From Candidatus Zhuqueibacterota bacterium (GTDB lineage: Bacteria; Zhuqueibacterota; Zhuqueibacteria; Zhuqueibacterales; Geothermadaptataceae), in the NCBI GenBank assembly GCA_030950365.1, contig JAUZRQ010000022.1:1-64000 (forward strand): a stretch of 64,000 nucleotides of DNA, written 5' to 3'. The notes below the pieces were generated by a model, which had not been told where the DNA came from, ran no database searches, and saw only the letters and a list, made by a program, of their open reading frames with translations. A program made the position numbers and the translations under genes. Shown here one piece after another: positions 31,230-31,548 of the stretch; the stretch's first letter is position 1, and every line of letters begins with the position of its first letter.

Positions 31230-31258
31230 TTGACTTTCCGGTCTTCCTGTTTTATCTT
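31230..31258 (+). promoter_or_regulatory. Predicted sigma-70-type promoter of the methionine operon
   Basis: TTGACT (31230-31235) and TATCTT (31253-31258) are separated by exactly 17 bases. Transcription would begin near 31265, giving an untranslated stretch of about 39 nt before the leader peptide ATG. The preceding 255 bases (30975-31229) hold no recognised gene. Confidence 0.7.
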
Positions 31259-31303
31259 TGCCGCTAAAATTTACGGAATTTTTTCATTCAAACGACGTTT
31301 CCC

Positions 31304-31477
31304 ATGAATCATACGCTGCCAAAAAGCTCGACCGTTGATTGGATTCCGCTTCCCCTTTCGGGAAACGTCCGCCACAGTCTGTCCACCATGGCCCACACCA
31401 TGACCATGTGTACCATGATGATGACCACCATGATGTGCATGTCGCATCAGACTTTCCGGAGGTGTGTGCCATGTTGA
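31304..31477 (+). CDS. Methionine-rich leader peptide of the metY-metX-ask-asd operon
   Basis: A 57-residue ORF between the promoter and the terminator that precedes metY. It begins at ATG 31304 and ends at TGA 31475-31477. Residues 29-46 (31388-31441) contain nine Met codons in eighteen, including ATG-ATG-ATG; the rest of the run is five Thr, two Cys, one Ala and one His. Whole-peptide Met content is 10 of 57. No homologous domain is expected: the peptide is a ribosome-stall sensor, with codons matching the operon's end product. Start selection is uncertain because no Shine-Dalgarno precedes 31304; a start further in would retain part of the Met run. Its stop lies 31 bases before the terminator stem. 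Confidence 0.8.
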   Translation: MNHTLPKSSTVDWIPLPLSGNVRHSLSTMAHTMTMCTMMMTTMMCMSHQTFRRCVPC

Positions 31478-31544
31478 GCTGAGTGATTTCCCAAGCATCG
31501 AAAATCCCAAAGCCCCTTTCGGTACCATCTCCGGAAGGGGCTTT
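31387..31544 (+). promoter_or_regulatory. Transcription attenuator with alternative RNA pairings
   Basis: Three mutually exclusive pairings can be written by eye. (1) 31387-31399 with 31461-31473 (CATGGCCCACACC / GGTGTGTGCCATG), 12 of 13 pairs, folding the Met-codon run. (2) 31452-31464 with 31526-31538 (CTTTCCGGAGGTG / CATCTCCGGAAGG), 13 pairs with two G-U, an antiterminator that captures the terminator's 3' arm. (3) The terminator 31509-31522 with 31531-31544. A ribosome stalled in the Met run prevents pairing 1 and frees pairing 2; a ribosome reaching the stop codon covers 31461-31473 and lets the terminator form. Confidence 0.8.
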
Positions 31545-31548
31545 TTTT
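31509..31548 (+). terminator. Attenuator Rho-independent terminator
   Basis: A 14-bp stem (AAAGCCCCTTTCGG / CCGGAAGGGGCTTT, one G-U pair), an 8-nt loop (taccatct) and a run of seven T residues (31542-31548). It sits upstream of metY, not after a gene, which marks it as an attenuator. Confidence 0.92.

Follow-up and report, generated by a model that had tools for sequence, protein, structure and literature searches.

Leader peptide attenuators and methionine genes

Attenuators of operons like trp, his, leu, ilv and thr act through ribosomes that stall where the leader encodes the amino acid made by the operon, whereas RNA control of methionine genes usually relies on T-boxes and SAM riboswitches. 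The attenuators named in a previous study are only those for His, Leu, Thr, Trp, Ile/Val and Phe, with a suggested gamma-proteobacterial origin (PMC3766115), and a survey from 2010 describes leader peptides as known only in Proteobacteria and Actinobacteria while adding some in Firmicutes (PMC2965389). Methionine looks like the least likely amino acid for this type of control, given that the translation of any leader has to begin with Met, and our search of the open-access literature, which falls short of proving priority, found no characterised methionine attenuator. By description, the closest precedent that we found is the putative metL leader before metNIQ of Streptomyces lividans, proposed from RNA-seq; like the leader described here, it is short, contains Met and Cys codons (GARCMCRRMCAF) and precedes a methionine gene, but it belongs to a transporter operon, its authors found no Rho-independent terminator, and the passages on it offer no comparative evidence (PMC8079986). 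A survey of Actinobacteria reported cysteine leader peptides, but the regions preceding methionine operons showed no conserved RNA structure; these leaders share Cys codons and the proximity to sulfur amino acid genes with our locus, but no terminator or antiterminator was found there (PMC1262725).

The locus presented here lies in a stretch of 64,000 nucleotides from a Candidatus Zhuqueibacterota bacterium (the window), and its leader is very likely a ribosome-mediated transcription attenuator of the trp/his type with Met (and Cys) as regulatory codons. Like the attenuators of trp, his, leu, thr, ilv and phe operons, it has a short ORF with clustered codons for the amino acid of the downstream pathway and a choice between 1:2 and 2:3 pairing. 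As in trp/his-type attenuators, the terminator is located between the leader ORF and the first structural gene, and the mutually exclusive antiterminator starts from a region 2 at the end of the leader ORF. Unlike these systems, it has Met (with Cys) as its codon run and is found in phyla outside Proteobacteria and Actinobacteria, and it differs from the Trp, His, Leu, Thr and Phe leaders of Rfam in scoring below the gathering score for every leader family. SAM-I riboswitches (RF00162) and Met T-boxes also terminate transcription of methionine operons depending on methionine status, but they sense SAM or uncharged tRNA directly and without translation. The specificity for Met, and probably for Cys, as well as the architecture would be new to a known mechanism.

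The leader region of the metY operon in the window

All features described in this section are encoded on the forward strand. A sigma-70-like promoter can be read from the sequence at positions 31230 to 31258 (TTGACT-17-TATCTT) and is followed by a leader peptide ORF of 57 codons at 31304 to 31477 (MNHTLPKSSTVDWIPLPLSGNVRHSLSTMAHTMTMCTMMMTTMMCMSHQTFRRCVPC), with ORFs carrying Met runs found at the same place in relatives. The regulatory codon run at 31388 to 31441 comprises nine ATG and two Cys codons within 18 codons, while ATG is absent from the other two frames of the run, and a scan of both strands found no other stop-free stretch with nine Met in 18 codons in the window. No clear Shine-Dalgarno sequence precedes the ATG at 31304 and this start codon is not certain. 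Translation of the ORF, whose stop codon lies at 31475 to 31477, is predicted from the conservation of frame and codons in relatives. Elsewhere in the genome of the window, a search for another such run returned only one chance-like site with 3 mismatches, and no Met leader was found directly upstream of metH. An inverted repeat (GACGTTTCCC/GGGAAACGTC, at about 31294 to 31303 and 31361 to 31370) flanks the start of the leader ORF and could possibly form a pause hairpin or cover the start codon.

The three structures of the leader are arranged around region 2 (31452 to 31473), which overlaps the end of the leader ORF. Its 3′ part (31461 to 31473) forms 12 of 13 possible pairs with region 1 (31387 to 31399), the 5′ arm of the 1:2 protector helix P1; this pairing is marginal in the window sequence alone (z = -1.8) and significant across the family. 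The 5′ part of region 2 (31452 to 31464) forms the core of the antiterminator P2 with 31526 to 31538 (13 of 13 pairs, two of them G-U), extended by five more pairs between 31466 to 31470 and 31521 to 31525, and the P2 duplex of the window sequence is stronger than those of 200 out of 200 shuffles. Its partner, region 3 (31521 to 31538), consists of the loop of the intrinsic terminator and the first half of its 3′ arm. The terminator itself (31509 to 31548) is a hairpin at 31509 to 31544 with 14 pairs between the arms 31509 to 31522 and 31531 to 31544 (z = -5.1 versus shuffles), followed by a T-run to 31548. The terminator fold and the P2 fold are nearly isoenergetic at -38.6 and -35.5 kcal/mol, and the cost of only about 3 kcal/mol for forcing the fold through P2 fits what a switch requires.

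The leader precedes metY (O-acetylhomoserine sulfhydrylase, i.e., homocysteine synthase; 31597 to 32895), metX (homoserine O-acetyltransferase; 32916 to 34109), an aspartate kinase gene overlapping the end of metX (34069 to 35514) and asd (aspartate-semialdehyde dehydrogenase; 35511 to 36557), which overlaps the end of the kinase gene. All four match their family models above cut-off (TIGR01326, NF001209, TIGR00657 and TIGR00978, respectively), in agreement with the order metY-metX-ask-asd given by the initial annotation, whose promoter, 57-codon ORF, nine-ATG run, P1 and P2 pairings (12/13 and 13/13) and 14-bp terminator with its T residues we likewise recovered at the same positions. The metY frame is open further upstream through the terminator to a GTG at 31483 (31483 to 31596), creating a 470-codon ORF; this extension is probably due to chance, yet annotation programs may pick the wrong start because of it.

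A family of leaders rich in Met codons

We collected metY loci from the phylum of the window and from named genome contigs, as well as from the class of a contig titled Ignavibacteria and the phylum of a contig titled Calditrichota; once duplicates and very short sequences had been discarded, 206 distinct upstream regions were left. For each residue, the highest count within 14 codons of a short ORF up to 400 nt upstream was compared with dinucleotide shuffles; in these tests, as in the permutation tests below, relatedness among loci is only partly corrected. Met stands out in this test, with at least five Met per 14 codons at 27 of the 206 loci compared to 0.0 in shuffles (maximum 1). At the same threshold, Cys is enriched as well (6 loci versus 0.2 expected), in line with the earlier proposal that the interleaved Cys codons could add sensitivity to sulfur supply. 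Counts for Leu, Arg and Ser are close to the shuffles, and those for Ala and Phe are moderately above them. The parallel proposal of a threonine input was dropped, since Thr codons are not enriched across the family (3 loci versus 1.8 expected) and threonine sensing is therefore unsupported.

A looser scan over 650 nt listed 53 loci, including 45 with at least three Met, and these 45 leader loci are a minimum, as others like L035 were lost to the length filter. Sigma-70-like promoters of the form TTGAC-N-TA are found upstream of 30 of the 45 leaders versus 1.2 expected. The Cys-rich ORFs of L194, L196 and L197 were excluded because their position is unfitting and no following terminator was established. 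A blind search of 294 genomes for the 15-nt pattern ATG-TGY-ATG-TGY-ATG (encoding Met-Cys-Met-Cys-Met) returned 23 sites versus 5 for the reversed pattern. Those sites that are part of a short leader ORF with a close hairpin terminator are located before metY, metX or a sulfate transporter, and the remaining ones lie in other contexts.

Met leaders with co-varying helices occur in the phylum of the window, in Calditrichota, and in the class of the contig titled Ignavibacteria, so that the check set beforehand, conserved Met runs with co-varying alternative helices in relatives, turned out positive. The phylum of the window differs from that of the contig titled Calditrichota, as searches by phylum gave different genomes. 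Within the phylum of the window, leader sequences diverge while the design is kept, as illustrated by L110 (MNFSFTDMMMHNMMMQMMICNHERCVFR), and other relatives include L109, whose metY is 84% identical to that of the window and whose leader shares the C-terminus RCVPC with the window leader, L012 (containing MCMCMCQCIKMFGRRSG), and L009 (containing HMGMTMRMMLG). Weaker leaders with two or three Met are found in G016 and G021. A close metY is present in only 22 of 63 genomes of the window's class, and most other metY loci of this class have no leader. In several members of the class, at L019, L020 and L025 to L028, a gene for an Rrf2-type regulator (verified with Pfam for L019, PF02082) lies directly upstream of metY and there is no Met leader.

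The geometry is constant across the family: the distance from the last Met codon to the end of the stop codon has a median of 33 nt, and that from the stop codon to the terminator has a median of 25 nt. Over 48 leader-terminator pairs, pairing between the sequence downstream of the last Met codon and the next hairpin reaches a mean z of -1.9, half of them below -2. In most cases, the antiterminator arm is found 5 to 30 nt ahead of the end of the stop codon of the leader, the site of a terminating ribosome. This pairing is specific to each leader's own terminator (double-centred mean -5.4 kcal/mol with a permutation standard deviation of 0.49; 0 of 5000 permutations as good), and the 1:2 pairing is partner-specific too, though more weakly (-2.6 versus a standard deviation of 0.43), with very long 1:2 pairings in L151 and L153. 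Compensating changes can also be seen by eye when comparing L200 (TCGAAGGG with CCCTTCGG) to L202 (ATGAAGGG with CCCTTCAA).

Duplicated leaders and combinations with riboswitches

Many relatives carry more than one device. Two Met leaders in tandem, each with one terminator, are found in L011, L041, L181, L182, L202, L203 and L213. At L035, L036, L052 and L058, a Met leader and its terminator come first, and a SAM-I riboswitch, confirmed with Rfam and equipped with a separate terminator, lies between them and metY; about ten more loci show this combination by sequence pattern only. Leaders before metX are found at L248 and also in three genomes of genus g7, which belongs to the window's class (L284, L285 and L287); at L287, about 400 nt separate the leader from metX. 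At L227, a Met-Cys leader with terminator is followed by a second short ORF (L227:1633-1788, MKNPINHRDTVSSRFTSLRYDEIFPSSLTKTNRTSISLQSMSCLMYCCCCC) ending in SCLMYCCCCC and then by the gene for a sulfate ABC transporter substrate-binding protein; the second ORF is a probable cysteine leader in series with the methionine leader.

Proposed mechanism

Promoter, ORF, Met/Cys run, three co-varying helices, terminator and gene context, as shown by sequence and comparison, together point to a device in which ribosome stalling would respond to the charging of Met-tRNA and set the read-through into the operon. RNA polymerase would make the leader RNA while a ribosome translates the leader peptide. When charged elongator Met-tRNA is plentiful, the ribosome would reach the stop codon at 31475 and cover region 2, allowing the terminator to form and leaving metY-metX-ask-asd untranscribed. 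When Met-tRNA, or perhaps Cys-tRNA, is scarce, the ribosome would stall in the first half of the ATG run and mask region 1, which would block P1 and let region 2 pair with region 3 as P2, so that the terminator could not close and the operon would be read. Without any translation, P1 and the terminator would both form as a default off state. Cells would thus probably gauge methionine via the speed of ribosomes over Met codons. Methionine is also the initiating residue and its starvation limits initiator tRNA; severe starvation should consequently cut initiation at the leader and return the switch to off, and the device may work only in a middle range of methionine supply. In relatives where a Met leader precedes SAM-I, the two elements would constitute a two-input gate for Met-tRNA and SAM.

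Alternative readings of the leader can be weighed against these observations. The ATG codons might be a by-product of CAT and GAT repeats in the +1 frame, whose translation would yield a His- and Asp-rich peptide (HHGPHHDHVYHDDDHHDVHV) acting as a His leader or in metal binding, and this frame is indeed free of stops starting at a TTG (31339) and has a very high His content. However, relatives keep Met (and Cys) rather than His amid different neighbouring codons (e.g., MCMCM, MMCMM and MMMHNMMMQMM), His passes the threshold of our enrichment test at only 2 of the 206 regions (0.1 expected) compared to the 27 for Met, and the downstream genes make methionine, not histidine. We therefore rejected this reading, which is not conserved in relatives, as extremely improbable. 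Control of the terminator by a SAM riboswitch, a T-box-like RNA or a protein-binding antiterminator, with the Met-rich ORF being incidental, would agree with the presence of SAM-I before metY in many relatives. Yet the window has no SAM-I match, strict filters gave none in its genome and detected SAM-I in only 6 of the 82 genomes from the phylum, and the SAM-I elements that do occur sit 3′ of the Met leader and have a terminator of their own. Neither the T-box model (RF00230) in the window nor any other Rfam family at the gathering threshold in the window leader gave a match, and the sub-threshold matches include Phe_leader, the best-scoring leader family (21.1 versus 55 bits), and His_leader, as expected for a terminator-containing amino acid leader. 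Such a control is accordingly very unlikely.

A third possibility accepts the leader peptide attenuator as real and sees its main input in a general slowing of translation or in cysteine supply instead of methionine. Cys codons are interleaved in most leaders, some loci have Cys-only leaders, and the names of the matching models often annotate the sulfhydrylases of the family as also acting on O-acetylserine. Met codons nevertheless outnumber Cys codons in most leaders, and the Met runs of L009, L058 and L207 contain no Cys at all, making this reading unlikely on the whole. We retain methionine as the probable main input of the window attenuator.

A putative sulfur amino acid regulon and further leaders

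On balance, we lean towards the view that translation-based attenuators reading both Met and Cys codons, duplicated or stacked with SAM-I or Cys leaders into two-input logic on single transcripts (charged Met-tRNA and SAM, or Met and Cys), form a widespread sulfur amino acid regulon. It would cover metY, metX and sulfate uptake in several little-studied phyla for which leader peptide attenuation had not been described, and the system would be broader than the initial annotation proposed. Leader peptide attenuation would in this way gain methionine as an input and reach beyond the phyla to which it is usually attributed. The dozens of natural variants, some of them in series with SAM-I, could serve to test how cells tell the demand of protein synthesis (Met-tRNA) from that for methyl donors (SAM), and as a regulatory signature the leader can guide the annotation of sulfur genes in bacteria that have not been cultured.

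Some leaders were observed in contigs with other titles. Leaders with Cys runs (CICCCCCMP, CCPCCICCM) are located directly before metY in L091 (-161 to -77 relative to metY), L105 (-167 to -89) and L098 (-160 to -85), which lie in contigs titled Bacteroidetes, Bacteroidota and Chitinophagaceae. The Cys-run leader of L098 has no obvious intrinsic terminator, and further upstream the same locus has a Met leader as well as a SAM-I riboswitch. Met-Cys leaders are found at L047 in a contig titled Gemmatimonadetes (-290 to -134 relative to metY; SIFMCMCMCIPP) and at L101 in a contig titled Granulicella (-246 to -135; AMAMCSCLC), both with GC-rich hairpins and weak or short T-runs, and the device may extend to further phyla with these two loci.
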